A stretch of 64,000 bases of DNA from an uncultured Pseudoflavonifractor sp. (GTDB lineage: Bacteria > Bacillota > Clostridia > Oscillospirales > Oscillospiraceae): the NCBI GenBank assembly GCA_947425785.1, contig CANEAY010000004.1, positions 1 to 64,000 on the forward strand, read 5' to 3'. The position numbers and the translations under genes are program-made. How positions within the stretch are numbered: the first letter of the stretch is position 1; the number at the start of each line of letters is the position of its first letter. Below the pieces are notes generated by a model. The model saw only the letters and a list, made by a program, of their open reading frames with translations. It made no database searches and had not been told where the DNA came from. This document shows positions 15,289 to 59,823 of the stretch, one piece after another.

Positions 15289-15308
15289 GGTGTTCCCCCT
15301 TTGGTCAT

Positions 15309-15452
15309 GGGCTGGTTTTGGGCCGATTTTGGGCCGGTTATGGCTGATTTGGGCCGATTTTGGCTGATTTGGGCCTGTTTATGCCGTTTTTTGACTGATT
15401 TTTTCTGATCTTATCCAGTTTTTGGGCTGATTTTAGCCGGTTTTTGGGCCGG
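15309..15452. repeat. Degenerate tandem repeat (about 10-11 bp) over the dxr 3' end
   Basis: About a dozen imperfect copies of GGGCYGRTTTT on the plus strand, running from inside the dxr C-terminal codons across its stop into the dxr-rseP gap. In the coding direction the unit reads as Lys/Asn/Arg/Pro-rich codons. Confidence 0.85.
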
Positions 15453-39622: not shown

Positions 39623-39698
39623 CCGGGTATAGCGGAGTTGGTACCGCGCCACATTTGGGATGTGGAGATCGTGCGTTCGAGTCGCACTACTCGGACCA
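39623..39698 (+). tRNA. tRNA-Pro (anticodon UGG)
   Basis: 76 bases including encoded CCA. The acceptor CCGGGTA pairs with TACTCGG, and the D stem GCGG pairs with CCGC. The anticodon stem is CCACA/TGTGG with loop TTTGGGA (anticodon TGG), and the T stem is GTGCG/CGCAC with loop TTCGAGT. It is the complete copy at the left boundary of the island; its 3' 45 bases are probably element-supplied. Confidence 0.96.
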
Positions 39699-39719
39699 AT
39701 TATGCGGTTTTGACCGCAC

Positions 39720-39757: not shown

Positions 39758-39787
39758 GTTATGCTTCAGATTCTATGGAGGGATAAT

Positions 39788-41495: not shown

Positions 41496-42989
41496 TTATC
41501 TTGCCCGTTTGCCTTTCTTCCCCTCTGAGGGTTTACCATCCCTTTTTCCCAGCTCCTTCAGCCGCTGTGCCTCCACGATCTCCGCCTTCATCTCCACGAT
41601 GAGCCGCTTCAGTTTCTCCTCACACTCCTCCCGGGTATGGGCGTAAACATTGCGGGCGTGCTTTTTGCCGTCGGGCCACTTGGGTGAGTAGCGGCCTTCA
41701 AAGAGGTGGTCGTTGATTTCGCTGATACACCCGGTGCCGGGTTTGCGCTTGCGGCCCATGTAGGGCTTGAAGTCGGTCATCCTCGGCTTTTCCGGCGTGG
41801 CTGGTGTAGCATCCTGCCCCGGCGCCGAGGTGTCATCCTGCGGTGTTACCTTGCCGATGCCCCGGTCGATGTTGGCGGCGGCCGTGCGGCGCATATCGTC
41901 GGTGATGTGGGTGTAGATGTCCAGGGTGGTGGCCGCCGACACATGGCCCAGCATGGCGGAGAGGGTCTTCACATCCATGCCGTTCTCCAGAGCCAGGGTC
42001 GCAAAGGTATGCCGCAGGTCGTGGAACCGCACACGCTTGCACTCCGCGTGCTCCAGAATGAGCTGCAGGCGGGAGCGTACTGCGCCGGGGCTCAGCGGCA
42101 TATCCTCCTTCACCGGGGAGGGAAACATCCACCGGGAGTCCACCGTCTTTTTATACTCCCGCAACGCCTCCACCACGGCGGGCGGCAGGACGAGCTTGCG
42201 GATGGAGTTCTTCGTCTTGGGCGTGCTGAACTGGAGCTGGCCCCGCACATCGTAGACCTGTTTATTGATGCTCAGCACACCTGTCTTGAAATTCAGGTCA
42301 TCCCACTGAAGGGCCAGCAGTTCGCCTCGGCGCAGGCCGGTGGCCAAGTCCAGAAGGAAGAGTTCATAGTACCCCTCCGCCTGTGCCTGGATGAGAAACC
42401 GCTGCAGTTCCTCCCGCGTCAGCACCTGCATCTCCCGCGCCTTCTTGGGCGGCAGCTTACAACCAATAGCCGGGTTCACACGGATCAGCCCATCCTGTAC
42501 CGCCTTCTCCAGTGCGGAGCGGCAGGTGGCGTGACAGGCTCGCACCATCCGGTCGGATAGTCCCTCGCCGTATTGTTCGGCAAGGCGCTTCCGACCATTT
42601 TTCTTGAGCCGTCCATAAAACTGCTGCAGGTCATTCTGGGTCAGCTTGTTCAGCGGGATGCCGCCGAGCTCCGGGACAATATGCAGACGGATGCGGCTCT
42701 CGTAGGTCTCCTGGGTGGTGGGACGGATCCTGGGCTTGGCGTGATTTTCATACCAGTACTCCAGCCAGTCGGCAAAGGGCATTTCGGGGCGTATCTTCTC
42801 CAGCTTCAGCCCGCCACACTCTTCCTTGAGCTTCTGGAGCTTTTCGATGCACTCCTTTTTCGATTTGCCAAAGACACTCTTCGTCTTGGGATAGCCCTTA
42901 TCATCATAGCCGATGACGACCCGGCCCTCCCAGCGCCCGTCCTTGCGCTGTCTTACAGTCCCGTCGCCGGCTTTTCGTTTTCTTGCCAC
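41496..42989 (-). CDS. Tyrosine site-specific integrase with extra C-terminal DNA-binding-like segment
   Basis: 497 residues. An N-terminal AP2-like arm-binding domain (about 1-60) is followed by a SAM-like core-binding domain (about 70-165) and a catalytic domain (about 180-380) with T-G-L-R-R-G-E, H-D-L-R-H-T-F and the nucleophile in L-D-I-Y-T-H. About 110 residues follow the catalytic domain. They begin M-G-R-K-R-K-P-G-T-G and resemble the N-terminal arm-binding domain again. Most integrases end shortly after the tyrosine. The start overlaps the preceding integrase by 37 bp. Confidence 0.92.
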   Translation of the reverse strand: MARKRKAGDGTVRQRKDGRWEGRVVIGYDDKGYPKTKSVFGKSKKECIEKLQKLKEECGGLKLEKIRPEMPFADWLEYWYENHAKPRIRPTTQETYESRIRLHIVPELGGIPLNKLTQNDLQQFYGRLKKNGRKRLAEQYGEGLSDRMVRACHATCRSALEKAVQDGLIRVNPAIGCKLPPKKAREMQVLTREELQRFLIQAQAEGYYELFLLDLATGLRRGELLALQWDDLNFKTGVLSINKQVYDVRGQLQFSTPKTKNSIRKLVLPPAVVEALREYKKTVDSRWMFPSPVKEDMPLSPGAVRSRLQLILEHAECKRVRFHDLRHTFATLALENGMDVKTLSAMLGHVSAATTLDIYTHITDDMRRTAAANIDRGIGKVTPQDDTSAPGQDATPATPEKPRMTDFKPYMGRKRKPGTGCISEINDHLFEGRYSPKWPDGKKHARNVYAHTREECEEKLKRLIVEMKAEIVEAQRLKELGKRDGKPSEGKKGKRAR

Positions 42990-44155
42990 GGTTTCAGTTC
43001 CTTTCCGAACAGGTCTTCCATGAAGCCGCCCACGATGCCGCAGGCCTGTTTCTGCATATCCGATGTGACATGGGTGTATGTGTCCAGGGTGAAGGACGCA
43101 TTGGTATGGCCCAGGATACCGGAGAGGGTCTTGGCGTCCACACCGCTGGTGAGGGCGTGGGTGGCAAAGGTGTGGCGCAGGTCGTGGAAGCGGATGCTGG
43201 GCAGGCCCGCCCGCTGGAGCAGGGTCTTCATGTGGCAGTAGACTGTGTTGGGATTGACAGGATCCTCCGGTTTCACCGGGTCAGGAAATATCCACGGGCC
43301 GATGGCATCCTCCCTGCGCCGCCGCAGGATGTCGGCCACGGTGTTCGGCAGGATAATGGTGCGCATACCTTTTCCAGTCTTTGTCTCGCCGGTGGTGTAC
43401 TCCCCTTTCCTCTCACTATGGAGGGTACGGCACACCTTCAGCGTCCCGGCCTCCCCATCGAAGTCGCTCCACCGCAGACCGCAGATCTCACCCCGCCGCA
43501 GGCCGGTCATCAGCTCGGTCTGGAAGAAATCGTGCCACACCTCGTCCTGCTCCACCACCTCGAGGAAGGCGTCCAGCTCTGCGCGGGTCAGGATGCGCTT
43601 GGGCTTGTAGTTGGGCTTGGGCGCCGTCGTGCCCTCGGTGGGGTTGCGGGGAATGACATGGGCCTGCACCGCATCCTTCAGTGCGGCGTGGAGCGTGGAG
43701 TGGATGTGGCGAACCATGGAGTCAGAGAGTTGATGTCCCAATTCGGGGTGCTCGTGGATACGCCCATCTGTTTTCAGGCGGCGGTACATCCGCTGGATAT
43801 CTTGCCGGGAGATGAGGGAGATTTGTTTGTCGCCCAACTGCGGTTTGATGTAGCTTTCGATGTATTGGCGGTAACTGGTAAGGGTACCGGGACGCACTGT
43901 TCCCTCCTTGTACTCCGACAGCCAGCGATCCAGCCACTCGCCCAGCGTCATGCGGCTGTCCTCGGTCAGCTCCACATCGCGGTAACACTCGATGTTCTGG
44001 TGGAGCTTGTCCAACAGCGCCTTCTGGGTCTTGGCGTAGACATGGCGGAACAGTGGCTCGCCGTTTTCCTTGTGGCCGATGACGATACGGCCCTCCCAGC
44101 GGCCATCCTCCCGCTTTCGCACCATGCCGTCACCGGAGGGTCTACGCTTTGCCAT
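42953..44155 (-). CDS. Tyrosine site-specific integrase
   Basis: 400 residues, the usual Tn916/phage-type length. The N-terminal arm-binding domain is K-R-R-P-S-G-D-G-M-V-R-K-R-E-D-G-R-W. Core-binding and catalytic domains follow with T-G-L-R-R-G-E, H-D-L-R-H-T-F-A-T-H, G-H and the tyrosine in L-D-T-Y-T-H. The ATG at 44155 overlaps the DUF6809 stop by one base (TGATG), and the downstream integrase starts within its 3' end. The three genes form one translation-coupled unit. Which integrase made the present insertion cannot be told. Confidence 0.94.
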   Translation of the reverse strand: MAKRRPSGDGMVRKREDGRWEGRIVIGHKENGEPLFRHVYAKTQKALLDKLHQNIECYRDVELTEDSRMTLGEWLDRWLSEYKEGTVRPGTLTSYRQYIESYIKPQLGDKQISLISRQDIQRMYRRLKTDGRIHEHPELGHQLSDSMVRHIHSTLHAALKDAVQAHVIPRNPTEGTTAPKPNYKPKRILTRAELDAFLEVVEQDEVWHDFFQTELMTGLRRGEICGLRWSDFDGEAGTLKVCRTLHSERKGEYTTGETKTGKGMRTIILPNTVADILRRRREDAIGPWIFPDPVKPEDPVNPNTVYCHMKTLLQRAGLPSIRFHDLRHTFATHALTSGVDAKTLSGILGHTNASFTLDTYTHVTSDMQKQACGIVGGFMEDLFGKELKPWQENEKPATGL

Positions 44156-44433
44156 CAGTCTCCCTCCTCCCTGCCCAAGCACTCCACCATGATCCGAACG
44201 CCCAGCCGAAAGCCCATGATGAAGTTTTCCTCGGCGGTCACGCCGTCCATATCTTGCTGGGTCTTTAGGAGTTCTTCCAACAGCGTTTTCTCCTCTGGGC
44301 CAAGCTGCTCCTTCAACTTTGTCTCGCACTGGGTAAGATGTGCGCTCAGCTTGCGTATGGGGGAGCCGCTGGGGATGGGGTGGTCAAAGAGGGTGAGGTT
44401 CCCATAGTATAGATTTTTCAGCGTTTTCGTCAT
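44155..44433 (-). CDS. DUF6809-family protein
   Basis: 92 residues. Pattern L-Y-Y-G-N-L at the N-terminus and E-N-F-I-M-G-F-R-L-G-V-R-I-M near the end fits DUF6809, small proteins common in clostridial integrative elements and often beside integrases. Function unknown; mostly helical. GGAGG lies just upstream of the ATG. Confidence 0.82.
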   Translation of the reverse strand: MTKTLKNLYYGNLTLFDHPIPSGSPIRKLSAHLTQCETKLKEQLGPEEKTLLEELLKTQQDMDGVTAEENFIMGFRLGVRIMVECLGREEGD

Positions 44434-44745
44434 ATTGTGCGCCTCCTTTGGTAGCTACACACAATACCATGCCCCGGTTCGGAAAGCTACCGAACCGGGG
44501 CAGAGTTATCAGAAAGTTATCAATTGATCTGACGGGCCTCTTCATTGTTTATTGTGGGGTAACTGTTGCTCATTGAAATTAGCAGCTAATCTGCTGGATT
44601 TCCCCTCCCTCTAATGGGGCTTACACCGTCCTCTATATTTCTGAGGTAGTTATATTATAGCCGAGGGATAGTTCTATTAAATTCGACTTTCCCTTGAAAC
44701 CCTTTCTTTCTCCATGTATAATGAAAATACTTGGAGGCGATAGAT
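44434..44745. other. Divergent intergenic region between DUF6809 and the TPR-like gene
   Basis: About 310 bp without a gene. It contains a strong hairpin CCCCGGTTCGG / CCGAACCGGGG (44472-44500) and AT-rich sequence that probably holds divergent promoters. GCAGAGTTATCAG at 44501-44513 recurs at 47901-47913 upstream of the transglutaminase-like gene, apart from one base at the left end. Confidence 0.55.
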
Positions 44746-46611
44746 TTGATTGATGTATTATGGACTATTCTTCAAAGTTGGAATATTTCCAATTGGATCA
44801 TTTCCGTCGTTTGTACACTATCTTTATGCACATACCTTCTGATAAAAGAATATGGCCACACTTTTATTTCGCACATCTTACACCGGCGAAACCTCCCCTC
44901 ACTATGCTGCATGCTTTTTTTCTTTTGTACTTTCATAATACTGTTTCAAACTGGACTTTTTATTCGTATTCCTTTGCCCTTTCGCATCTTGCTTATCCTT
45001 CTTGATGCATTTTACACTGCAATAGTTTTATATTCAGTACAGAGCCTCACCCTTTTTTCTAAACGCTATCTCAAAAGATATCAGAAGTGGCTGAAGCTCG
45101 GTCAGGCTCACGAACACAGCGATATCCTCATGAAAATGCCGTGGTACTTCCTTGACACAAATGAAAAAGTTAGCTATCTGATATTGAAAGGGAAATATCT
45201 GTTTGAAATAGGAAATCATCGCGCAGCCTACGAAGTTATGTCTGGTATTGATCAAAAATTTTTGTACCCTGAAGAAATTACCGAACTGACAGTCGATTTA
45301 GTTTATATGACTTTAGCTTTAGGTAATTTTACTAAAGCTGAATTGCTTGTGGAACGAATTAAGACTGTCGCCCCACCCGCCTACTACTTTCTTAAATCCT
45401 ATCTCTCGGAGCTCCAAGGGGATTTAGACACCGCCTGGGAATACGCTCGTAGCGGAGAAAACTTTATCTCTACAAAAGAGAAAAATGCCAGGATACTAAC
45501 TGCCCTCTATACTCAATTGGGTCGTCTTTCATTCTTTCGCAACAATGTTACTGAGATGTTTCGTTATTACTATCTTGCGCTTGAGCAAGCGAAGCGCTAC
45601 GGCGATACTCGTTTGCTCCATTCCACTTATCAAAATCTTATTTCACAAATTCAAATGCAACACTTACACGAAGATAAAATGGATGACCTGATGGCTGAAT
45701 ATACATCTGCCATCTCTGGTTCTTCATTGCAAAATATGTTGGAGTTTTCCAATTTCCGCATATCGTTGGCCCGGCAACAACATGACAAAACGAAAGAATA
45801 TGAGATGATCCTTGCAGGGTATCGCCTTCTTCATCAGAAAACCTCACCACCTGAACAGTATATAATGGAAATGTCCACTTTAACTATGCTTACAAATGGT
45901 GACTATGACGCCACTATTGTATTAAACGATATTGCACAGCATTTTGATGCTTATTTCTCCTTACCGTTGCCTTCCCGCTTTATTGTACTTCAAGGGCTAA
46001 CGCGCCCACAGCATCTGACCATTGAACAGGCTAAATTATACGAGCTCTGGACACCCAAGCTTGTAAACTACGCCAAAAACTTTGCCGCAAAAGACTTAGA
46101 GGAATATGAACGCACTCTGCCAACTGATTGCGTTAATGAGCGTTGCTGGGTCATTCATCAGCGAATTGATTTTTTGAGACGCAGCGGCCCTCAATATGAT
46201 GGTCAGCAGGTATTGCAGTGGCTACAGGAAATTGCTCAAATCTATCGAGATCATAACCAAGCATTTCATGAAATTGAAACTGAAGTTACAATTCTAAGAC
46301 AATTTGATGAAATGATTTATCTTAAACAGCTTCTTCCTGATGCAGATACATTGGGGCGAATGAGAGACACCCTTTCAGATGCATGCAAAAAATCCGAACT
46401 GCTTCCAGCGGCAACTTTAGGTGGTCTTCTTATTGATCTTGCGTATTTTAGCCACAAATTAGGAGCCAACCGACAGGCCATAGAGTCTTTAACTCGCTTC
46501 TATAGCTCGAATTTGTCATCACAGGACCTATCGCAGGAATATCGTCAAAAACAGTCCATGCTGGAGCAAACTCTTCAATTGCATTCTGTAGAACAAACCG
46601 GTTTGAAATAG
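44746..46611 (+). CDS. Membrane-anchored TPR-like protein, island cargo
   Basis: 621 residues, AT-rich. Three N-terminal hydrophobic segments (about 14-34, 50-75, 80-100) are followed by a Lys/Arg-rich stretch (S-K-R-Y-L-K-R-Y) and then about 500 residues of helix pairs that resemble TPR or SEL1-type solenoids (for example A-L-G-N-F-T-K-A-E-L, Y-L-A-L-E-Q-A-K-R-Y-G-D). No enzyme motif. The likely start is the TTG at 44746, 8 bases after GGAGG; a TTG at 44731 lacks such a site. It is flanked by element backbone genes and might be a sensor or scaffold; function unknown. Confidence 0.72.
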   Translation: MIDVLWTILQSWNISNWIISVVCTLSLCTYLLIKEYGHTFISHILHRRNLPSLCCMLFFFCTFIILFQTGLFIRIPLPFRILLILLDAFYTAIVLYSVQSLTLFSKRYLKRYQKWLKLGQAHEHSDILMKMPWYFLDTNEKVSYLILKGKYLFEIGNHRAAYEVMSGIDQKFLYPEEITELTVDLVYMTLALGNFTKAELLVERIKTVAPPAYYFLKSYLSELQGDLDTAWEYARSGENFISTKEKNARILTALYTQLGRLSFFRNNVTEMFRYYYLALEQAKRYGDTRLLHSTYQNLISQIQMQHLHEDKMDDLMAEYTSAISGSSLQNMLEFSNFRISLARQQHDKTKEYEMILAGYRLLHQKTSPPEQYIMEMSTLTMLTNGDYDATIVLNDIAQHFDAYFSLPLPSRFIVLQGLTRPQHLTIEQAKLYELWTPKLVNYAKNFAAKDLEEYERTLPTDCVNERCWVIHQRIDFLRRSGPQYDGQQVLQWLQEIAQIYRDHNQAFHEIETEVTILRQFDEMIYLKQLLPDADTLGRMRDTLSDACKKSELLPAATLGGLLIDLAYFSHKLGANRQAIESLTRFYSSNLSSQDLSQEYRQKQSMLEQTLQLHSVEQTGLK

Positions 46612-47972: not shown

Positions 47973-49760
47973 CTACCACCCCATGGTCATGCCGCCCATG
48001 CCTTGCTGTTGGGCTTGGCGTTGATCTTCGTGGTCATCCGGCTTGTGGCCCATGGCCAGCTTCTTTTCTCTGAGCTGTTCCATTCGCTTGCGGTCGATTT
48101 GGATACCGCCGGGGATCGTTGGGGCTGGTGTTGTAGATTGGAGGATACGGCTCATGTGATGAAGGAGCCGAGTGACGGAGAGCATGACAGAGGGCGGGCC
48201 GAGACTATCCCAACGATCCAGAAAGAATTGGGCGTAGGTGTTGCCCTGGGCTGTTGACTGAGTAAACCAGGCGTGGGCCTGCTCATAGTCCTCTTGCTCC
48301 AGATAATATTTCCCCAGCGCATATTGGGCGTACTGGTTCCCAGATTCGGCAGAGGCAGTCAGGTATGCCACCGCCTTTTCCTCGTTCTTGGGAATTCCCT
48401 TATCGGTCAGATAGAGCTTACCCAGCCGATAGTCGGCATGCCGGTTGCCCTGGGTAGAGGCCTTCTCATACCAGCGAACGGCCTCCTCTACTCGTTGTTC
48501 AGATTGGAGGAGTTTCCCCAACGCATATCGGGAAAAGCCCAGGCCCTTTTCTGCCGCCGCCCGAAACCATGTCTCTGCTTCTTCATCATCCGGGATCACG
48601 CCCAGGCCGTCCCGATAGCATTTGCCCAACTGATGGGCAGCCACAGTGAAACTCTGTTCCCAAAGTTGCTCCAATGTGCGGACGGCTTCTTCTTTCTCAC
48701 TCCACACCGTATCGTCATCATATAGGACAGCCTTGGCCTGACGATATACCGCCGCCATCTGGTAGACGGTTTGGAACCGGGAAGACGCTTCTTCCTCCTG
48801 GACTTCATCTTCCATGTCCTTGTCCTCAAAGGTGACCACGCCAAGCCTGATGTTCTCCGCCTCCTGAATGACAGCGTTTTTGATCTGCCGGAACTCCTTT
48901 TGCTCAGAGAGCTTAGGCCGCTTTCTCTCTGGCTGCTCCGAGTAGTAGTCCATCACCTGGCATTGGAGCTGCCACCATGCCTCATAGGCATTCTTCACAG
49001 CAGGTACCTTTTCCAACTCATCCACGATGCTGTCCACGGTGGCCTTGGTATCTTTCCTGAGGTAGCCATAGATCTTCTTCCCTTTAGCTGATTCCAGTTG
49101 TGCAGAGAGGGTCAACATCAGTTGTTCTATCTCCGGGTTGCTGCATACGCCCTTTCTCATCTCTTGGGCCAGTGTTTTCATCTTCTCTTTGGCCTGACAA
49201 ACCAGTTCATCCCTGCTAACAGATTTTTGCTCATAGGTATGGAGCATCTCCATCTTGAAAATATCGTTGGTCAGCTCTGATTTGATCTTCTTGATCCCCT
49301 CTTTGTTCAAGTATGCCTGCCCCGGTTTTACTGACCAGGCCATCATGTGGACATGGGGATGGTCACCCTCATCGTGGAAGGCGGCATACCAACGGAAGTC
49401 ACCAGGTGGGATGCGCATGGCGGCAGCGATGTCGTTGCGGTGAGTGCGAAGCAGGTTGCGCCATTGGTCGGCGTGGTCGTATCCCAATCGGACGGCATCC
49501 TCCCGCTTGAGAGAAATGATGTGCGTCCAGATATTGCCGGGGTACCCATCCAACTCCTTCACGGCTTCAGTCATGCCGATGCTGTCCTCATCACCAAAGA
49601 GACCGTGGGAGCGAGGCCGCTGTGCCATGTACTCCATGTAACCGGAGGGGGACTGCTGGATCAACTCTACGCCGTCCCTTGTCCCGATGTACTCCAGATA
49701 GCCACCAGCTTTACCACTGCTACCCTTGATATAGGGGCTCTTGACGATGAGCCGGGCCAT
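47973..49760 (-). CDS. MobP-type relaxase fused to Sel1-like repeats
   Basis: 595 residues. The relaxase domain (about 1-200) has the motif I region G-G-Y-L-E-Y-I-G-T-R (Tyr21/24) and the metal-binding H-D-E-G-D-H-P-H-V-H at 129-138 (three His). A helical linker (200-370) leads to four or five Sel1/TPR-like repeats (about 375-525) and a Gln/Met/Gly tail. It would nick the element's oriT for conjugative transfer. The start overlaps the accessory gene stop (TGATG). Fusion of relaxase to Sel1 repeats is known in Firmicutes but unexplained. Confidence 0.9.
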   Translation of the reverse strand: MARLIVKSPYIKGSSGKAGGYLEYIGTRDGVELIQQSPSGYMEYMAQRPRSHGLFGDEDSIGMTEAVKELDGYPGNIWTHIISLKREDAVRLGYDHADQWRNLLRTHRNDIAAAMRIPPGDFRWYAAFHDEGDHPHVHMMAWSVKPGQAYLNKEGIKKIKSELTNDIFKMEMLHTYEQKSVSRDELVCQAKEKMKTLAQEMRKGVCSNPEIEQLMLTLSAQLESAKGKKIYGYLRKDTKATVDSIVDELEKVPAVKNAYEAWWQLQCQVMDYYSEQPERKRPKLSEQKEFRQIKNAVIQEAENIRLGVVTFEDKDMEDEVQEEEASSRFQTVYQMAAVYRQAKAVLYDDDTVWSEKEEAVRTLEQLWEQSFTVAAHQLGKCYRDGLGVIPDDEEAETWFRAAAEKGLGFSRYALGKLLQSEQRVEEAVRWYEKASTQGNRHADYRLGKLYLTDKGIPKNEEKAVAYLTASAESGNQYAQYALGKYYLEQEDYEQAHAWFTQSTAQGNTYAQFFLDRWDSLGPPSVMLSVTRLLHHMSRILQSTTPAPTIPGGIQIDRKRMEQLREKKLAMGHKPDDHEDQRQAQQQGMGGMTMGW

Positions 49761-50348: not shown

Positions 50349-50720
50349 CTATTCCTCACGCTGGAAGTCCTTGCCTCTCCACTTGGCATTGGTGTAGTAC
50401 TCCACTGCCTCCCGGATAGGTAGGATGATGTACTTCAGGTTGGCGTTCCGCTTGAGACCATCCTTTGTCCAGAGGGTCGTGTTCTCCGTTCGGATGAGCC
50501 GCTTGTCCACCAGTTCAGAGACATACTTCCGCACTGTGTTTGGACTCATGCGGACACTGTCCCCGATGGTAGAGTAGCTTGGGTGGCAAGAATAGCTTTT
50601 CCGGCCTTCGATGTAGAGTAGGTAGGCATAAACAGCGATGGCACCTGCGGAGAGGTCAAGACAAAAAAGCTCGTTGGGCAGAGTGAATCGGTGAGAGAGT
50701 TTTGGCTGTTGGATCATCAC
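50349..50720 (-). CDS. Winged-helix DNA-binding protein
   Basis: 123 residues. The pattern L-S-A-G-A-I-A-V-Y-A-Y-L-L followed by S-Y-S-T-I-G-D-S-V-R-M-S-P-N-T-V-R-K-Y-V is a winged helix-turn-helix, of the type found in RepA/replication initiator N-domains and element regulators. The basic C-terminus has no extra domain. It overlaps the excisionase-like gene by 4 bp (ATGA). Probably an element regulator; full replication initiators are longer. Confidence 0.8.
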   Translation of the reverse strand: MMIQQPKLSHRFTLPNELFCLDLSAGAIAVYAYLLYIEGRKSYSCHPSYSTIGDSVRMSPNTVRKYVSELVDKRLIRTENTTLWTKDGLKRNANLKYIILPIREAVEYYTNAKWRGKDFQREE

Positions 50721-50932
50721 TGACTGTCACCTCCCATCGTTTGTTTCTCCACCCACTGACAGAGCTTATCCTTGGGTACCACGATACGGTTGCCGATACG
50801 GATAGCCGGGAAGCCTTGCTCCGCCATCAACTCATAGGCGCTGGAGATTGAGATACCCAGGGTTTGGGCCACGAGCTTTGCGCTGAGAAACAGCGGCAGT
50901 TCATCGTAGGATTTGAATTCAGATTCTTTCAT
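50717..50932 (-). CDS. Excisionase-family helix-turn-helix protein
   Basis: 71 residues. The pattern L-F-L-S-A-K-L-V-A-Q-T-L-G-I-S-I-S-S-A-Y-E-L-M followed by F-P-A-I-R-I-G-N-R-I-V-V-P-K-D is the MerR-like/Xis fold (excisionase family DNA-binding protein). It would direct the integrase towards excision or regulate element genes. The ATG at 50932 has AAGGGA upstream; a longer reading has no family similarity. Confidence 0.83.
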   Translation of the reverse strand: MKESEFKSYDELPLFLSAKLVAQTLGISISSAYELMAEQGFPAIRIGNRIVVPKDKLCQWVEKQTMGGDSQ

Positions 50933-51252
50933 TAAATCCCTTCTTTCAAAAAATTTATTTGCCACACACCGTACCGCTTCCTGCCCCGGACTTTTACCGC
51001 GGCGTCTTTCCTCTGTCGGTGCGCTCTTTCGCATTGCGAGATCCTGGCGCACTTCCCCCAGGGGCTTATCTTCTCCGGTGGTGGGTATTCACTTGTCAAG
51101 GTGCAGAATAAACCATGAGCCACTTTCATTTTTCGATTGACAATCTATATTTATTTTGGTATAGTCTATTCACGATTAGACTTTAACACTTGTAAAAAGA
51201 ATTGTCAATAGTTTTTCAGAGACAAATTGTCTATTGTAAGGGAGGACTTCTC
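50933..51252. promoter_or_regulatory. Divergent control region with SigA promoter and ATTGWCAAT-type repeats
   Basis: About 320 bp without a gene. The rightward promoter is TTGACA (51137-51142), 17 bp, TATAGT (51160-51165). Three similar short sites, ATTGACAAT (51136), ATTGTCAAT (51201) and ATTGTCTAT (51226), lie at the promoter and between it and the DUF6076 start. They are candidate operators for an element regulator. Confidence 0.7.
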
Positions 51253-52749: not shown

Positions 52750-52870
52750 TCTTTATCAAATAAATTGATAATCTGTTTTTGTTTGCCATACCGCATACCA
52801 CCTATCAGTACTATACTCTTATCTTTACATAAGACCTCGTATTGCTTCTCATTCAGAACCCCAAGGGTAA
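52750..52870. other. Unassigned segment after dndE
   Basis: About 120 bp. On the minus strand a frame that is +2 to dndE stays open through L-N-E-K-Q-Y-E-V-L-C and F-D-K-E-W-Y-H-K-P-K, which reads like genuine protein but has no start codon or ribosome site. It could be the truncated end of a gene lost when the dnd block joined the element. No other feature seen. Confidence 0.35.
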
Positions 52871-53245
52871 TTACAACCCTTTGTCCAACTCCGTCAAATG
52901 CATAAGTAAATCTCTTGAATACTTTTTTTCTTGTTCCAACAAACGGGCACCACGTTCCAAATGACCTTTCACATAAGTGGGAAAGTATTCTTCGTCAGGG
53001 ATATGCCGGCCTTCTTGCAATTCAATCAGGCATTTATAGAGACTGTCTGCATCTCCGGTGATTGTTGGACGGTTCAGCTCTTTACCCAGACTATCAGAAT
53101 ATAACTCAATCTCCATCAAAGGCCCTTGGCGAATAGATAGAGATAACGCAAGCCTCATGAGAGTAGGCCACGGAAGTTTTTCACTTGCCTCAATTTGATT
53201 GAAGATTTCTTCCGTTTGCCGGGATGTTTTAAGTTTAAACGCCAT
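52871..53245 (-). CDS. dndE: DNA sulfur modification protein DndE
   Basis: 124 residues, the size of DndE. It begins F-K-L-K-T-S-R-Q-T-E-E-I-F-N-Q-I, typical of the family, with a helical, Leu-rich middle and C-terminal R-G-A-R-L-L. DndE binds nicked DNA and is needed for phosphorothioate formation. Last gene of the dndBCDE operon, overlapping the dndD stop by one base (TAATG). Confidence 0.92.
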   Translation of the reverse strand: MAFKLKTSRQTEEIFNQIEASEKLPWPTLMRLALSLSIRQGPLMEIELYSDSLGKELNRPTITGDADSLYKCLIELQEGRHIPDEEYFPTYVKGHLERGARLLEQEKKYSRDLLMHLTELDKGL

Positions 53246-55383
53246 TATTTCACCTCGAAATAGCTTCCCTCGGAAATCCGAGTACGCTTGTCCTCTCCAT
53301 ATTCGAGCATATACACTTTTGCAATCTGCTGGTCAAGTGAGACCATGTGTTCGTGCCGGATCTCTTCATTTGTAGAGAGCACAAAAAGCTGCCCCTGAAG
53401 TTCTTTGAAGAACTTTTCAGTAATGTTGGCGCGATGCTCAGTGTCGATGCGCGCAAACGGAGTGTCAATAATAAACGGCAATTTGTTGTGACTTTGATTC
53501 ATAATTGCCCAATACAATGACATTACGAGAACCTGCTTTTCGCCATTGGAAAAACGAGTATAGTCAAGTTCTACAGGAAGTGTAATCGTCTCTTCAGTAA
53601 AATCAGTCAAGGCAAAGCCAAGAGATTCTTCCGTTGTATTCAGCTGAGTTATCAGTGATTGAAATCCAACCTGATTCAGACTCCCTTTCAGAGCGGCGGC
53701 ACCATGCCTCTTTGCTGTAAGCTTAAGTGCGGAGACCTCAACTGCCTGATTTCGGACGAGGTGCAGAGAGAAGTCATCGCCAAGGTAGATCCGATCAACA
53801 AAATCGTCTTTTCGAATAAGCTCTCTGAACTTTCGGTTGAGATCGTATTCAACATCTGCAATTAACTTTTTGTATTGCTGTTCCTGAAGTTCTTCTACCA
53901 GCAGAAGCATTCGATCAGAAAGTGCGGACACAGATTGCTTTTTCAGCTCAGCCTCCAGTGCCTTTCGACTGTGATCCAATGCCTTTTTCAATTCTTCTGT
54001 TCGATCTTGAAGTTCTTGTAGAGCGTTCTCTTTACTCGCCAACTCGGATTTAAGGCGATCAATCTGATTTGTTAAGTCAGAAACACATTTGACATGACTT
54101 TCAAAATTTTCGATGGAACTCTTTTGCAATTGTGTTCTGATCTCTGTGCTTCGCTGAATTGATTCCTCGATTCTCTGCCTGTCTTTGCTAAAGGTAGCGG
54201 TCTTGTATTCCTCCACATCTGCAATTTTGTTAAGAATTGAGAGCCCGTCATCCTCTGATAGCATAAAAATTGGGGTTTTGTTCTCCAAGTCTCGATTTTC
54301 AAAGAAAGACTGTATTGCACTTACGAGGAGCATCGTATCTTCAGTGGGGCTATCACTACTTGTTTTCTTCATTGTGTTGGAGATGCACCGCTTGAACTGG
54401 GATGTATTCAGAGAACTCTGTAGAATTCTATAGGCCTGGAGATCCTTCTCAGTCAAAATTTGCTCTTTAACATTTGTCAGCAAGTCCTTCACAATTATAA
54501 ATGGTAGGATCTCTGACGCCGCACTCTTTAATTTCCAATTAATCCGCTCGCGCCGGTCTTCTTCATCTTTTAAGGCGTTCTGCAAATCTTTCCAAACTTC
54601 GAGTGTAATGCCTCCGTTGGCGGCATACGCTTTGTTTTCGTGATTCAGATCAGCCACAAGACGCTCAACATCTGTACGCAGTTCGGCAATCTCACCGATT
54701 AATCGCGCCTCTTCTTGAGAATACTTTGCCAAGGTCTCTCTCTGATCTGCATAATTTTGAGCAATGGACTCATTGTCGGATTCGACTCCGTTTAAAAGTC
54801 GTCGAATATTGTTGTATAGCAGTTCATATGTATCATTACCGCTTAGGATAAGCAATGCGTCTTTGATGTTATTGTGTTGCTCATCCAAAAAGTAGTCAGC
54901 AATTTCTTCACCATCGAAGAAGTACAGTTTGTGTAATTCTGGCGGAATAAGGTGCAAGAGGTAATTTTGGAAATTCATTGCGGCTTCTTCATCCAGCAAT
55001 ACACCATTCTGCTTTACCGAAAAAACTTCGGTAATTATGCTGTTGCTCCAAGTCCAAAACCGAGTTACCTCATAATGATCAGTATCAATCCGACTTTCAG
55101 AAAAACAAATCTTCACATATGCAGATTTGCTCTCGTCCAACCTGGCTTGATTGTTGATTAAGTCATAGATTTCCTTTAGATATCGTTTTCCCGAAGTTTT
55201 AAAGCCGAAAGATGCATGCCCGTACAAACAAATCTGTATGGCTGTAAAAAGGGTAGTTTTTCCTGCGCCATTTTTTCCACCAATGATGACAATTCGTTTG
55301 GATTGATCATCGGTCATGACATTAAAGGAGTTAAAGTCTTCGTATGATCCAAAGTTATTTAGTTCGATTCGTTCAATCTTCAT
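53245..55383 (-). CDS. dndD: DNA sulfur modification protein DndD (SMC-like ATPase)
   Basis: 712 residues. Walker A G-G-K-N-G-A-G-K-T-T is at 35-44. A long coiled-coil region (about 200-530) separates it from the ABC signature F-S-N-G-E-K-Q-V near 610 and Walker B F-I-I-D-T-P near 640. DndD is the ATPase of the phosphorothioation complex, proposed to open or nick DNA with DndC/E. It overlaps dndC by 11 bp. AT-rich like the whole module. Confidence 0.94.
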   Translation of the reverse strand: MKIERIELNNFGSYEDFNSFNVMTDDQSKRIVIIGGKNGAGKTTLFTAIQICLYGHASFGFKTSGKRYLKEIYDLINNQARLDESKSAYVKICFSESRIDTDHYEVTRFWTWSNSIITEVFSVKQNGVLLDEEAAMNFQNYLLHLIPPELHKLYFFDGEEIADYFLDEQHNNIKDALLILSGNDTYELLYNNIRRLLNGVESDNESIAQNYADQRETLAKYSQEEARLIGEIAELRTDVERLVADLNHENKAYAANGGITLEVWKDLQNALKDEEDRRERINWKLKSAASEILPFIIVKDLLTNVKEQILTEKDLQAYRILQSSLNTSQFKRCISNTMKKTSSDSPTEDTMLLVSAIQSFFENRDLENKTPIFMLSEDDGLSILNKIADVEEYKTATFSKDRQRIEESIQRSTEIRTQLQKSSIENFESHVKCVSDLTNQIDRLKSELASKENALQELQDRTEELKKALDHSRKALEAELKKQSVSALSDRMLLLVEELQEQQYKKLIADVEYDLNRKFRELIRKDDFVDRIYLGDDFSLHLVRNQAVEVSALKLTAKRHGAAALKGSLNQVGFQSLITQLNTTEESLGFALTDFTEETITLPVELDYTRFSNGEKQVLVMSLYWAIMNQSHNKLPFIIDTPFARIDTEHRANITEKFFKELQGQLFVLSTNEEIRHEHMVSLDQQIAKVYMLEYGEDKRTRISEGSYFEVK

Positions 55384-56746
55384 TTTCGAGTCCTTCTTGG
55401 ATATTGCTGTAGTGCAACCACCCCTGGTTCATAATTTTCTCAACCTCGCGGGCACTTACAGCAGATCGGGTATAGAATTTTGTGTTGTCAACAGCAATCA
55501 AAAGCTTAGAAACCAGTTCGAAAGGAACCCCATATTTCTGACATAACGCCTCAATCCGTTGAACGGTATCATTATCGTATTTTGCGTATTTGAATTGATC
55601 CCAAGGAAGGCGTTTATTTCGCACCTCATAATAGATATCTACGAGAGCCCGTCTGGAAAGATCTCCTTCGTCTTCCCACATTTTATCAATCATTTTCAAT
55701 TCTTCAATTGTAATGAGCTCGAATCCTGTTTCATCTTCTAATTGCAAAAGACGCTTTAGGATTTCTTTTCGCGTATCCAGTGTGAATGGTCCCCGACCAA
55801 AGTCGCCATCGGAATTGAAGTAGACAGCTCCATTTCTACGGCGCCAATCCCGCGCCTCGGGTTTAGCTCTCAACTCTACCAACCAGTTTCTAAATCTCCG
55901 GAGCGGAATCAGATTCTCTGCCCCATGATCAATGAAATTTTGCAGCGACTTGTCCTCTTTGACCATAGTGCAACACCAGCACCCAAAACGAGAATTACCA
56001 GTAATCGGGATCTTGTCCTTATCCACTTCACCGACTACGCTTTGCTCTTCGCCCAGCGTTTCGCCTTGATAAAGACTGAACAAATACTTGTTATCAGTTC
56101 CCCATGCGCTACGAGCATCGTCTTTGAGAAGATACTCCCACACAATGGAGTTTTCAACTTCTGTCAGAGGGTTATATACATAGGCTTTGGGAATTGAGGT
56201 ATGGGGAGATAATATCTTCCCTTCAATCTCATGGGAAGATATGCTTTTTGAACGAGCAGCGCTTTCTGCCTTTCGAACACCTAAAAGGATTACAATCTCG
56301 CCATCTTTTTTGATGGTATCGTAAGTGAACTTATTTGAAGGGTTAATCTTCAACCGTTCGGTACACCATCTGAAACCAGGAGCTTCTGGGGTCGGATATC
56401 CCAGACCGATTACCAAACTCCAGAAAGTTTGTCGAATCTCTGGATGCAGCATATGTGCTTCAACATTGAGATGTTCGCTTTCGCTGGCGGTATTGATCGC
56501 CGCATTCATACGATACATGTAGTCCTTTACAATGGGGTTCTCTACCATAGTATCCGATGTGACAACATATATCTTTTTCGTTCTTTCTTCTGGTTTCAAA
56601 GTGTGGAGCATTTCAAAAACGAGCTGACAGAGTAAGGTAGAGTCTTTTCCACCACTAAATCCAAGCATCCACGGGCGCTGATCGTGCTGGTAGACAAGTC
56701 GCATCTCCGCAATGATATCGTTAAATACTGTAAACATAAGTCTCAT
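55373..56746 (-). CDS. dndC: DNA sulfur modification protein DndC (PAPS-reductase family)
   Basis: 457 residues. The PP-loop S-G-G-K-D-S-T is at 31-37. R-W-C-T-E-R-L-K follows near 127, and the cysteine cluster F-G-C-W-C-C-T near 256-262 is placed for an iron-sulfur cluster as in known DndC. It activates the DNA phosphate and passes sulfur onto it. The sulfur donor, a cysteine desulfurase (DndA or IscS), is not encoded here and must come from elsewhere in the genome. It overlaps dndB by 4 bp (ATGA). Confidence 0.95.
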   Translation of the reverse strand: MRLMFTVFNDIIAEMRLVYQHDQRPWMLGFSGGKDSTLLCQLVFEMLHTLKPEERTKKIYVVTSDTMVENPIVKDYMYRMNAAINTASESEHLNVEAHMLHPEIRQTFWSLVIGLGYPTPEAPGFRWCTERLKINPSNKFTYDTIKKDGEIVILLGVRKAESAARSKSISSHEIEGKILSPHTSIPKAYVYNPLTEVENSIVWEYLLKDDARSAWGTDNKYLFSLYQGETLGEEQSVVGEVDKDKIPITGNSRFGCWCCTMVKEDKSLQNFIDHGAENLIPLRRFRNWLVELRAKPEARDWRRRNGAVYFNSDGDFGRGPFTLDTRKEILKRLLQLEDETGFELITIEELKMIDKMWEDEGDLSRRALVDIYYEVRNKRLPWDQFKYAKYDNDTVQRIEALCQKYGVPFELVSKLLIAVDNTKFYTRSAVSAREVEKIMNQGWLHYSNIQEGLENED

Positions 56747-57810
56747 TTCCCTTTAGTGAAGTTTTCTTCGTATACTAAGTCTTCGGGATCCAAAGGAATC
56801 TCTAACGTTTCCTTCAGCACGTTGCAGGCCAGCCGTGCTGCATCATTACTGTTGATGATCTTACCGTTGGTACGGATAACCCTGCCTTTCCAACATTCAG
56901 CACTTCTAAGCCAATCAACTTTTTCTAACCCAGCGATACTTTTCTCAAGCTCTTTGTCATCGTTCATTAGAAAATGGTTGCCTAAAACGCCAAGTGCTTG
57001 AATAATAATGGCTTGTGTGATGATGTATTTCTCGCGTAAATCCACTTTGCTGAGTTCCTTATTGGTCAATTCGTTCCACGGAAGAATGTGCCTTACCACA
57101 GCGGACCAATACTGCTTCAAAAAAGCCTCTGCAGCATCATTACATTCGGCATGCTTTAAGATTTTTTTGTTAGCCTTGTAAAATGTGTTCAGCGTAAAAA
57201 AGTTCGATGAAAATTTTCCAAGAATGTCTTTTTCCTTGTCTGTATACTGGTCAAAAAATTCAATTTCACTGATAACACGTCTTGTCACCACAGCCAAAGC
57301 ATCACGGGAGTCATAAAGTTCGGCAATGGAGTTAGATGTTTTCACAGCATGCTTATTGAGGTCGGTAAACATCTGCTGCCCATGTTGCAGTCCCTTATCT
57401 TCGTAGAAAACGACGGAAATGGTTTCAGTATTGAGCGTCTCGTCTTCCGTGATGGCCTCGATAATTGAAGCTTTTCTATGTTGACCGTCGACAATCATGA
57501 ACCGCGCGTCCATGGAAACTTCTAAAATTCCCAGATCTGCAGAGCCCATCGATGGGGCGAAGTTGTACTCGCCATCAATTGCCGCAGCCAAGGCAGAGAA
57601 GACATACGAATCACGGTTATCCAAAATATAGTCTTTTATTACAGGAATGCGGGTAGTATTCAGCCGTCGTTGGGCACGATATTCAGGCGGAATATACTCG
57701 TCATCATTTCCAAAAATTTTGCTCAAGAGTCTAAGGGGAATCATCGCAATATAATATTCCTTGCCGGCCTGCAATCCCTTTACTGCAGGAAATCTGTAAC
57801 AGAAGTCCAT
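56743..57810 (-). CDS. dndB: DNA sulfur modification protein DndB (DGQHR-domain)
   Basis: 355 residues. V-D-G-Q-H-R at 107-112 is the signature of the ParB/sulfiredoxin-like DGQHR domain; F-T-D-L-N near 150 fits too. DndB is reported in other bacteria to repress dnd transcription and tune modification level. Here a perfect palindrome covers the -10 box of this operon's promoter, a plausible operator for it. The ATG at 57810 has GGAGGT upstream. First gene of dndBCDE. Confidence 0.93.
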   Translation of the reverse strand: MDFCYRFPAVKGLQAGKEYYIAMIPLRLLSKIFGNDDEYIPPEYRAQRRLNTTRIPVIKDYILDNRDSYVFSALAAAIDGEYNFAPSMGSADLGILEVSMDARFMIVDGQHRKASIIEAITEDETLNTETISVVFYEDKGLQHGQQMFTDLNKHAVKTSNSIAELYDSRDALAVVTRRVISEIEFFDQYTDKEKDILGKFSSNFFTLNTFYKANKKILKHAECNDAAEAFLKQYWSAVVRHILPWNELTNKELSKVDLREKYIITQAIIIQALGVLGNHFLMNDDKELEKSIAGLEKVDWLRSAECWKGRVIRTNGKIINSNDAARLACNVLKETLEIPLDPEDLVYEENFTKGK

Positions 57811-57828
57811 GTGGATACCTCCGAAACC

Positions 57829-57873
57829 ACTTAAGTATATTCGCATTATATACTTAAGTAGTGAAAAAGTCAA
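57829..57873 (-). promoter_or_regulatory. dndB promoter with overlapping 31-bp palindromic operator
   Basis: On the minus strand TTGACT (57873-57868), 17 bp, TATAAT (57850-57845): a near-consensus promoter. ACTTAAGTATAT at 57829-57840 and its exact inverted copy at 57848-57859, 7 bp apart, cover the -10 box and its flanks. Binding there would block RNA polymerase. Confidence 0.9.
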
Positions 57874-57880
57874 GAAAAAA

Positions 57881-57903
57881 CCACCCAGTCAATGACTGGG
57901 TGG
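57881..57903 (-). terminator. Terminator after the AIPR gene
   Basis: CCACCCAGTC / GACTGGGTGG hairpin followed on the minus strand by TTTTTTC, directly ahead of the dndB promoter. It makes AIPR and dndBCDE separate transcription units. Confidence 0.92.
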
Positions 57904-57913
57904 TCGAAAGTGC

Positions 57914-59092
57914 TTAGTTGCTCATTGCGGTAAGCATCACACGCATATACAGTGTCTGCCAGTTGACGGAATCTTTGCCAACCTTTACAGGATCATTTCC
58001 GGAGTTACGGCTTCTTTCTACTGTAATCGATACCAGCTCGGGTCCGATTTTTTCTAACACTTCATAAGGGTCGCATTTCCATCTATACACGCCATTTTTT
58101 TCTTCGAGAAGTGCCCGAAGCGAACCAAGAATGGGGTAAATAAATCCATTAGGCGAACCATGGGACAAAGTCTTTTCATAGAACTTAGAAACAGGCGGCT
58201 TACGGTTCTCCTTCGGAGTGGTAACTCCGGAAATTGCTCCATACTTACCATTAGGATTTTTAATGCGGTAGTATTCAGGAATTTTGGACTCCACATAGTC
58301 GTAGAGCTTAAAAATCTCAATCATGATTGGCTTCATTTTTACATGGGGATTTTCGGGGCTATCACCGTACTGTTCATAGAGGTGAATGTAGTTATCAATA
58401 CAGCGCTTCTTGCTACTGAAGGAAACAACAGGACAGCTGTCCATTCCGGGATACGTATCCAAATTAAACATATTCAAGATTGCGAGGATATCACCGACGT
58501 CAATATTTCCATCGTCGTTCTCCATGAAATACACTCTGTCCTTGAACGGCTCGGTCGAAACAGCCTGTTTGATGATATCAAAGTAGTCTCTCAAGTTTGC
58601 AATGGACTTGTCCTGAACCTGGGTAGACGTGTTTCTGGCGGCAGCAAGATCCTCAAAAATACCTTCTACACCCGTCAAAATCTCAAGTTTCACAAACTGC
58701 TGACCACGCTCCAGATCATCACGATTTTCAAGGATAACCATCAAGGTGTGGCCGCCGTCAACATTGCCATGATATTCCTTGTCCGTAAATACCAACTTCA
58801 TAGTGCTGTCATAATTGTTGAATGTTACATCATCAGCCGAAAGGAGAATGCCGCGGTTCAGGAGATGAAAATCTTTGCCTTCAACAAGAGATGCTCTGAT
58901 TTTTTTCGCTACGCCGCTGTTGATATTCTGTTTTCGGGGATTTGTTTCCATCCAGTCGATCAGATCTTCGGGCAAATCCTTGACATCACAGATAGCGGTA
59001 TACATCTGCGATACACTGCTCGGCCCTTCTTTGTAGGGGTTAGGAATCTTGCGGAAGGATTCTACGGGAATATTGAATGTTCTCTTTGCCAT
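57914..59092 (-). CDS. AIPR-family protein (abortive-infection phage-resistance family) next to dnd genes
   Basis: 392 residues. Family features: N-P-R-K-Q-N-I-N-S-G near residue 51, F-H-L-L-N-R-G-I near 75, V-D-G-G-H-T at 111-116, Q-F-V-K-L-E-I-L near 131, and A-A-R-N-T-S-T-Q-V near 150. The V-D-G-G-H-T block parallels V-D-G-Q-H-R of DndB. AIPR proteins are linked to phage resistance, but their activity is not established for this form. It stands where dndFGH restriction genes would be expected and has its own promoter and terminator. AAAGGAG precedes the ATG. A restriction or sensing role with phosphorothioated DNA is inference. Confidence 0.85.
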   Translation of the reverse strand: MAKRTFNIPVESFRKIPNPYKEGPSSVSQMYTAICDVKDLPEDLIDWMETNPRKQNINSGVAKKIRASLVEGKDFHLLNRGILLSADDVTFNNYDSTMKLVFTDKEYHGNVDGGHTLMVILENRDDLERGQQFVKLEILTGVEGIFEDLAAARNTSTQVQDKSIANLRDYFDIIKQAVSTEPFKDRVYFMENDDGNIDVGDILAILNMFNLDTYPGMDSCPVVSFSSKKRCIDNYIHLYEQYGDSPENPHVKMKPIMIEIFKLYDYVESKIPEYYRIKNPNGKYGAISGVTTPKENRKPPVSKFYEKTLSHGSPNGFIYPILGSLRALLEEKNGVYRWKCDPYEVLEKIGPELVSITVERSRNSGNDPVKVGKDSVNWQTLYMRVMLTAMSN

Positions 59093-59153
59093 TGTGATTG
59101 CTCCTTTACTCAGAAAGTTTATTAGATACGTGGTACAACCACCATCTGAGTCT

Positions 59154-59197
59154 ATTTTACAAAAAATCTTAGAAATCTCAACGCTATATATAGCGTT
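59154..59197 (-). promoter_or_regulatory. AIPR promoter and shared 18-bp palindromic operator
   Basis: On the minus strand TTGAGA (59181-59176), 16 bp, TAAAAT (59159-59154). AACGCTATATATAGCGTT (59180-59197) is a perfect palindrome that abuts this -35 box and lies just upstream of the rightward TATAAT (59214-59219) of the XRE gene. It is placed to control both directions, most likely through the XRE protein. Confidence 0.82.
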
Positions 59198-59237
59198 TTT
59201 TTCGCTTTTGCAGTATAATATTTTTGAGGTGAGTGTC

Positions 59238-59462
59238 GTGTATGCTTACAATATAAATGTAGCTTTAGGTAATGTCCTGCGAAAATATCGCGAAGGACGT
59301 GGTTTTACTCAAGATGAATTCGCTACATATTGCGGCCTTAGCCGTGCGTACTACGGGCGAGTCGAACGCGGCGAACACAGCCTCACCATAGAAAAATGCC
59401 AAAAGATTGCTACTACTCTGAATGTCAGATTGGCAGATCTATTTGGGGAACTGCAGGAGTAA
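59238..59462 (+). CDS. XRE-family regulator of the dnd/AIPR cargo
   Basis: 74 residues consisting of little more than a Cro/C1 helix-turn-helix: L-R-K-Y-R-E-G-R-G-F-T-Q-D-E-F-A, then C-G-L-S-R-A-Y-Y-G-R-V-E-R-G-E-H. The likely start is the GTG at 59238, 6 bases after GAGGTG. The TATAAT at 59214-59219 would start the transcript only about 12 bases before it. Divergent from AIPR with a palindrome between them, so autoregulation is likely. Looks like the controller proteins of restriction-modification systems. Confidence 0.87.
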   Translation: MYAYNINVALGNVLRKYREGRGFTQDEFATYCGLSRAYYGRVERGEHSLTIEKCQKIATTLNVRLADLFGELQE

Positions 59463-59485
59463 TAAAATCATGATCCGTTCATTCC

Positions 59486-59774
59486 TTGTTTATAGCGGCT
59501 CAAACTTTGAGCCACTCTCCAGGCAGAAAGCACTTGCATAACCTCTTCCGCAAAGTTACAATGCAGACGATCCGAAACGCAAAACGCTTCCTGTCCGGCG
59601 CCGGTGAATGTTCACCGGGAACTGGGCGGGAAGCGTTTTTGACCACATGGATTACCACAGACAGCCCCGGAACACCTGTAAAACGCAGGTGCAAAGAGCG
59701 CCAAAGAGTAAGTGAAATTGAGCGGAAACAACCAAAAAGCGCTATAAATAATTAGAAAAAGTGTTCTCGAAAAC
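59486..59774. other. Right end of the island (integrase-site region)
   Basis: Non-coding. It has a perfect CCGGTGAATGTTCACCGG hairpin (59601-59618) inside a larger AAAACGCTTCC / GGAAGCGTTTT stem. A block (59620-59664) with TTGACCACA and ACCACAGACAG recurs at 39557-39602 in the left scar. These repeats are candidate integrase arm sites. The tRNA-Pro 3' half follows. Confidence 0.65.
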
Positions 59775-59819
59775 TTTGGGACATGGAGGTCGCACGTTCA
59801 AGTCGCATCACTCGAACCA
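59775..59819 (+). pseudogene. 3' half of tRNA-Pro (right attachment site)
   Basis: 45 bases from the anticodon loop TTTGGGA through the T arm (GTTCAAGTC) to ACTCGAACCA. It has the same length as, and close similarity to, the 3' half of the intact tRNA (39654-39698), but with differences in the stems. No 5' half precedes it. This is the chromosomal 3' half displaced by integration, hence the right boundary. Confidence 0.85.
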
Positions 59820-59823
59820 AAAA

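Follow-up and report, generated by a model that had tools for sequence, protein, structure and literature searches.

Background

Dnd modification systems that are decoupled from the DndFGH restriction genes and bordered by "suicide" nucleases have already been published (PMC10853773, in the part of its text that treats such borders). In their sections on these families, PMC2292703 and PMC3506569 report AbiU1/AIPR genes near modification genes and link them to restriction-modification, and the latter also places the N-terminal domain of DndB in the AbiU1/AIPR family; no solitary dnd case appears in those sections of either paper. AIPR and DndB are both covered by PMC5608340, which, in the pertinent sections, reports no Dnd system in its own strains. 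In Salmonella, DndB has been described in the pertinent part of PMC4507180 as repressing its own operon via palindromes. Here we describe a solitary dndBCDE operon that is preceded by an XRE-regulated AIPR gene, and use contextual and comparative analysis to weigh how the two might be related.

The dnd/AIPR cargo of an integrated element

The window, meaning the whole 64,000-nucleotide stretch analyzed, from an uncultured Pseudoflavonifractor species, contains an integrated element of this gut Clostridia bacterium, which is probably mobilisable and carries the dnd/AIPR cargo as its right-hand part. Its left end lies at an intact tRNA-Pro gene, and a diverged copy of the 3' end of that gene is predicted to mark its right end; similarity to the related element of Anaerotruncus massiliensis AT3 (locus L045) stops at 59821. 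The G+C content per kilobase is 41–46% in the cargo versus 58–64% in the flanking chromosome. The recognizable parts of the element are:

39623..39698, + strand: tRNA-Pro (TGG), intact, left end of the integrated element
41496..42989, − strand: tyrosine integrase 1
42953..44329, − strand: tyrosine integrase 2
47973..49760, − strand: MobP3/MobL relaxase with Sel1 repeats
50717..51052, − strand: AlpA/HTH_17 excisionase-like protein
59775..59820, + strand: diverged copy of the tRNA-Pro 3' end, with 37/46 bases identical to 39654–39699; putative right end

The element also encodes a 626-aa ORF (44731–46611, + strand) without a confident family match.

The cargo genes were identified with Pfam, NCBIfam and PADLOC models, and every frame of dndB-C-D-E, AIPR and XRE is open. 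On the minus strand they are read in the order AIPR, dndB, dndC, dndD and dndE, with the XRE gene divergent on the plus strand:

52871..53245, − strand: dndE; PF08870 70 bits (cut-off 25), TIGR03184 46 bits, below the cut-off of 72
53245..55383, − strand: dndD; TIGR03185 318 bits (cut-off 246)
55373..56746, − strand: dndC; TIGR03183 395 (cut-off 290)
56743..57810, − strand: dndB, with a DGQHR domain; TIGR03233 405 (cut-off 328); scanned as 56743–57822, start corrected to the ATG at 57810
57914..59092, − strand: AIPR, 392 aa; PF10592 92.3 bits (cut-off 25)
59238..59462, + strand: XRE/Cro-type HTH regulator; HTH_3 E 4e-16, PADLOC 'control protein' E 1.9e-14; scanned as 59241–59462, start probably the GTG at 59238

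Curated models thus recover DndB, DndC, DndD and DndE in operon order (52871–57810), the Dnd modification gene set that a sequence-only reading of this DNA had proposed as complete. The same reading had placed an AIPR gene with its own XRE controller directly upstream, and the PF10592 and HTH_3 matches of the divergent pair adjoining dndB bear this out. No cysteine desulfurase was found among the cargo ORFs scanned.

No DndFGH or Pbe partner found

Family scans detected no match to DndF, DndG, DndH or the Pbe genes in the cargo, in line with the claim that the island lacks DndFGH. A dndFGH set elsewhere in the genome would have spoken against the earlier reading; the DndH of a relative, which matches the control genome G266, finds no match in the window's genome or in G072, the genome that carries a related locus discussed below. 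PbeA, which matches the controls G056 and G227, is likewise without a match in the window's genome, and in G072 the PbeA query yields a single 77-residue match (E 9.6e-4), taken for an unrelated helicase. Neither query returned anything from the genomes of L045 and of a further solitary locus, L070, with the controls matching. The NCBIfam models TIGR03238 and TIGR03237 gave no match in the window's genome in a scan without a matching positive control. As this genome, in 39 contigs, is 93.4% complete, the absence of DndH and PbeA is strong rather than absolute.

An orphan ORF near the left end of the element (39779–41431, + strand; 550 aa), without a Pfam or PADLOC match, shows a PD-(D/E)xK-like stretch (DYDIVFY...LIEAKF) by eye. 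It was considered as a hidden restriction partner and set aside, as it was not found in three other solitary-dnd genomes and has no plasmid match.

A block that moves together under purifying selection

The AT3 element encodes XRE, AIPR and dndBCDE at 93–98% protein identity to the window. The DNA identity is 93.2% over window positions 52827–59821 and stops at both ends, as against 65–78% in the aligning pieces of the element backbone. The XRE-AIPR-dndBCDE block moves together. Between the window and L045 the dN/dS ratios are 0.048 for AIPR, 0.074 for dndB, 0.090 for dndC, 0.135 for dndD, 0.059 for dndE and 0.173 for XRE (eight changes); AIPR is under strong purifying selection and is kept as strictly as dnd.

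Two apparent control units

The intergenic regions of the block contain the following sites:

57826..57862: 15-nt inverted repeat with 93% complementarity that contains TACTTAAGTA and lies across the dndB −10
57845..57873, − strand: dndB promoter-like site TTGACT-17-TATAAT, 11/12, best of the scan
57879..57905, − strand: terminator-like hairpin of 12 pairs plus T-run, between AIPR and dndB
59154..59181, − strand: AIPR promoter-like site TTGAGA-16-TAAAAT, 10/12, with a weak −35, touching the palindrome
59180..59197: perfect palindrome AACGCTATATATAGCGTT, common to AIPR and XRE

From this arrangement AIPR and dnd look like separate transcription units. Co-transcription of AIPR with dnd is unlikely, given that both the hairpin with its T-run, which would terminate AIPR transcripts, and a separate dndB promoter-like site lie between them. 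The 101-nt stretch of the AIPR-dndB gap with both hairpins has a folding z of −7.5. Over the whole scan the numbers of sites were near chance (20 promoter-like versus 12.5 expected; 4 terminator-like versus 5.9), so the case for separation depends on how strong the hairpin and the dndB promoter-like site are and where they lie. For the same reason the lone match at 59181–59154, the counterpart of the promoter that the earlier reading had assigned to AIPR, is weak evidence for it.

The AACGCTATATATAGCGTT palindrome, equalled by 2 of 200 shuffles, may be the operator of XRE, and the repeat at 57826–57862 may be that of DndB. With at most one mismatch, TACTTAAGTA is present in 33 of the 34 loci that could be read, located within 160 bases ahead of dndB or right at its beginning, as compared with 20 of 680 shuffles; 46 loci were tried, among which L067 is cut off, 11 have no usable dndB start and L085 is the miss. 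Since it is present alike beside FGH, Pbe or AIPR, TACTTAAGTA belongs to dnd, and it is the probable DndB operator of this DndB group. It differs from the Salmonella DndB site TACG-N10-CGTA given in the relevant part of PMC4507180. The nearest AIPR relative outside L045, in genome G037 (AIPR 56% and XRE 61% identical), has AACGTCATATATGACGTT at the same place beside XRE, as seen by eye. G037 is without a DndC match; as the genome is 81% complete and the contig ends 223 bases past AIPR, it may still possess dnd.

An effector-less clade of dndC loci

A pattern scan with the DndC alignment over a genome collection of 84,980 species yielded 45 loci, 46 with the window. Ten of these contain FGH, 30 Pbe, three an AIPR module (the window, L045 and L046), and three none, L067 and L085 being cut by contig ends and L070 intact. 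Two assignments are marginal: L049 is an FGH locus with an additional weak PbeA-like match (22%), and L053 counts as Pbe only by a PbeB fragment at the contig end (E 2e-7), which a stricter tblastn limit excludes. Accordingly, a tblastn check of the 45 loci gave Pbe in 29, FGH in nine, both in one and none in six (L045, L046, L053, L067, L070 and L085). With 16 AIPR proteins as tblastn queries only L045 and L046 matched, so AIPR of this family stands at 0/40 in the FGH/Pbe loci, the flanks of some of which are incomplete. In one DndC subclade (L073–L077, L080 and L088) the Pbe genes follow dndE and do not precede dndB, and L077 and L088 contain an extra gene between dndB and dndC that is PAPS-reductase-like by similarity to L034 7332–8432.

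A DndC tree built with a quick method joins the window, L045, L046 and L070 in a single clade (SH-aLRT 97). Next to it is a group of six loci: five carry FGH, including one with the weak Pbe match, and the sixth carries Pbe. Of the four intact loci that lack FGH/Pbe, three carry an AIPR module immediately ahead of dndB. Counting the window and L045 as one lineage, AIPR occurs in two of three effector-less lineages versus none of 40 loci, which by hand arithmetic corresponds to 3/903 = 0.003, a figure that applies to non-independent loci and to a clade picked after being seen. In the fourth locus, L070, dndBCDE is solitary, and the 10 kb to each side of it contain no AIPR, FGH or Pbe gene; the neighbors look by eye like housekeeping genes. 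It follows that dnd needs no neighboring effector.

A second AIPR module at the same spot

L046, which is the same locus as that in G072, encodes dnd proteins 76–88% identical to those of the window, yet its AIPR is only 32% identical and its HTH is of another type. The module is also reversed: AIPR points away from dndB, from which it is separated by the HTH gene. The dndB of L046 has a TTGATA-17-TATAAT site; ahead of it, an inverted repeat of 12 bp (loop of 19 nt, T-run) was recognized by eye, which the terminator scan, restricted to short loops, does not report. The closest relatives of the L046 AIPR (72%) belong to modules in G088 and G008 that are without adjacent dnd. A single clade of the three dnd-linked AIPRs, and with it a single origin, was rejected (p-AU 2.0e-5); hence two different modules reached, or replaced each other in, one spot. 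Directly after dndE, G072 (L029) contains a DUF4145 gene (14567–15304), which may be this genome's own effector, and an unknown 319-aa gene (15319–16278).

The AIPR family away from dnd

In the sample of the order, AIPR of this family is present in nine of 394 genomes and lies beside dnd in two of the nine. None of seven plasmid loci (among 24 records) and none of four viral loci has dnd beside AIPR, and no dnd relative was confirmed on the viral contigs. HTH-AIPR pairs without dnd occur on six plasmids, one of which is only 5.6 kb in size. The DndB family gave 11 matches in 398 genomes of the phylum, and none of the ten other DndB loci has an AIPR by HMM or tblastn with queries of this AIPR family, which would miss distant AIPRs. 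Eight of 43 plasmid records with ≥80% cover, all dndC-bearing and from other taxa, were read together with 8 kb of flank in both directions; just five carry a dndBCDE operon. No AIPR was annotated on any of the eight, and none was found by tblastn with 16 AIPR proteins. This family as a regular partner of dnd was thus rejected. The sequence-only reading, which saw in AIPR a possible alternative effector or sensor of modification status, had tied this to AIPR homologues not lying mostly far from dnd; for the family they largely do, and the proposal is supported in part, by the three of four FGH/Pbe-less loci with modules of two unrelated origins.

Two plasmids in this sample show other genes at the borders of dnd. 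In the Ruegeria plasmid pTHAF33_d (L124 5503–6620) an Xre-RES toxin-antitoxin pair directly precedes dndB, and in a Candidatus Chlorohelix plasmid (L126 11899–12966) dndE is followed by a second DndB-annotated gene and then by an HNH gene on the opposite strand.

The AIPR protein and its possible likeness to DndB

PF10592 spans residues 49–354 of the 392-aa AIPR. Nuclease, helicase and HEPN families have no match in it (Pfam, NCBIfam and PADLOC), and no related solved structure was found by sequence. By eye, its conserved motifs DGGHT and ARNTSxQV resemble the DGQHR pattern of DndB. When the profile of AIPR was compared with that of DndB in search of a shared ParB/Srx (DGQHR) fold, the best of four runs gave a collinear match of 170 columns (P 0.0034) that sets DGGH opposite DGQH, with a probability of only 9.6%. 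The other runs gave P 0.010, 0.015 and 0.034, the AIPR controls 0.058 and worse, and smaller alignments P 0.09. If the two formed a toxin-antitoxin pair, XRE would neutralize a toxic AIPR; what the sequence shows is the gene pair and the shared palindrome. We favor a putative nucleotide-binding, XRE-repressed AIPR module of the abortive type beside a solitary modification operon; the module might also sense phosphorothioation.

How AIPR and dnd might be related

The explanation that we tentatively prefer, though we give it somewhat less than an even chance, is that an autonomous XRE-AIPR module was recruited as a stand-in or back-up effector by the dnd clade lacking FGH and Pbe. The 7-kb cargo block would then comprise two separately controlled modules. 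One, the solitary dndBCDE operon for phosphorothioation, would have a promoter of its own and an operator to which DndB probably binds. In the other, XRE would bind the palindrome between XRE and AIPR and keep AIPR low until infection or stress either relieves this repression or turns the AIPR protein active; AIPR might then halt the infected cell or the invader in the manner of abortive infection. AIPR would act without reading phosphorothioation, and may be toxic and functionally complement the operon. What the sequence itself offers in favor are the gene content, the hairpin and the palindromes, the identity of the block in two elements, the purifying selection on AIPR, the HTH-AIPR pairs on plasmids without dnd, and the two origins of the AIPR module. 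Against this reading count the L070 operon, which does without an adjacent effector, and the DUF4145 gene of G072 as a candidate effector there; moreover, recruitment is seen with only two origins and in one clade, and defence genes gather on mobile elements anyway.

That last point is the core of a different explanation, which we consider rather unlikely: mobile elements simply collect defence cargo, dndBCDE serves an epigenetic or redox role, and AIPR acts alone. Such hitch-hiking would fit the occurrence of the AIPR family mostly away from dnd, the apparent transcriptional separation of the two modules, the L070 operon without AIPR, and the right end of the element as a natural cargo slot; it sits poorly with two unrelated AIPR modules upstream of dndB in the FGH/Pbe-less clade when FGH/Pbe loci have none in 40. 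That AIPR is instead a phosphorothioation-coupled effector, restricting unmodified DNA or firing once the mark is lost, appears unlikely to us. Modified host DNA would in that case silence AIPR, by analogy with DndI and SspE, the readers of the mark in their respective systems, and XRE would delay AIPR until the host DNA is marked, like the controller protein of a restriction-modification system. Coupling would account for AIPR modules of two origins in the place of the missing FGH/Pbe, for an XRE-AIPR-dnd unit that two elements share in similar form as one block, and for the XRE score as a 'control protein'; the collinear AIPR-DndB alignment (probability only 9.6%) hints at a shared fold, and IscS-DndBCDE-DndI offers a precedent in the part of PMC11662687 that describes it. 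Against it speak the HTH-AIPR pairs that exist without dnd, even on the 5.6-kb plasmid, the insulated look of the AIPR and dnd modules, the AIPR protein without a nuclease or helicase family, and L070 without AIPR. More specific, and doubtful in our view, is a distinct type of phosphorothioation defence whose effector, replacing DndFGH/Pbe, would be an AIPR under repressor control that may be related to DndB and senses loss or absence of the mark; if true, this type arose at least twice, when unrelated HTH-AIPR modules were recruited to effector-less dndBCDE.

Under the preferred recruitment of an independent module, effector-less dnd operons would be paired with independent defence modules; were AIPR phosphorothioation-dependent, it would be a new effector type and would provide a function for the poorly understood AIPR family. 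Either way the locus bears on why many dnd operons are without FGH, and its clade offers a natural test, with four solitary dndBCDE loci, of which three have AIPR of two origins and one does not.

Comparison with known systems

The FGH and Pbe dnd loci of related Clostridia and others share the DndC family and TACTTAAGTA with the window; they differ from its clade, which is without FGH/Pbe. The AbiU1/AIPR proteins treated in the relevant sections of PMC2292703 and PMC3506569 possess an N-terminal HEPN domain, which was not detected in the AIPR of the window. An AIPR beside solitary dnd is not described among the matches listed in a search of the open literature (few subscription papers and no preprints). 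The systems of PMC10853773, as presented there in its account of borders, likewise combine solitary modification genes with stand-alone border effectors; their partners are HKD, HNH, REase, URI, HEPN and PIN nucleases, and the term AIPR is absent from its main text. As decoupling and border effectors are published there, the frame is known and the AIPR partner is new as far as searched. The Salmonella IscS-DndBCDE-DndI system, in the part of PMC11662687 devoted to it, is similar to the window in joining dndBCDE to a single-gene defence effector that acts without DndFGH. There the partner, DndI, is an ATPase/nuclease whose gene is co-transcribed with dndFGH; in the window it is a PF10592 AIPR served by an XRE and a promoter-like site of its own.
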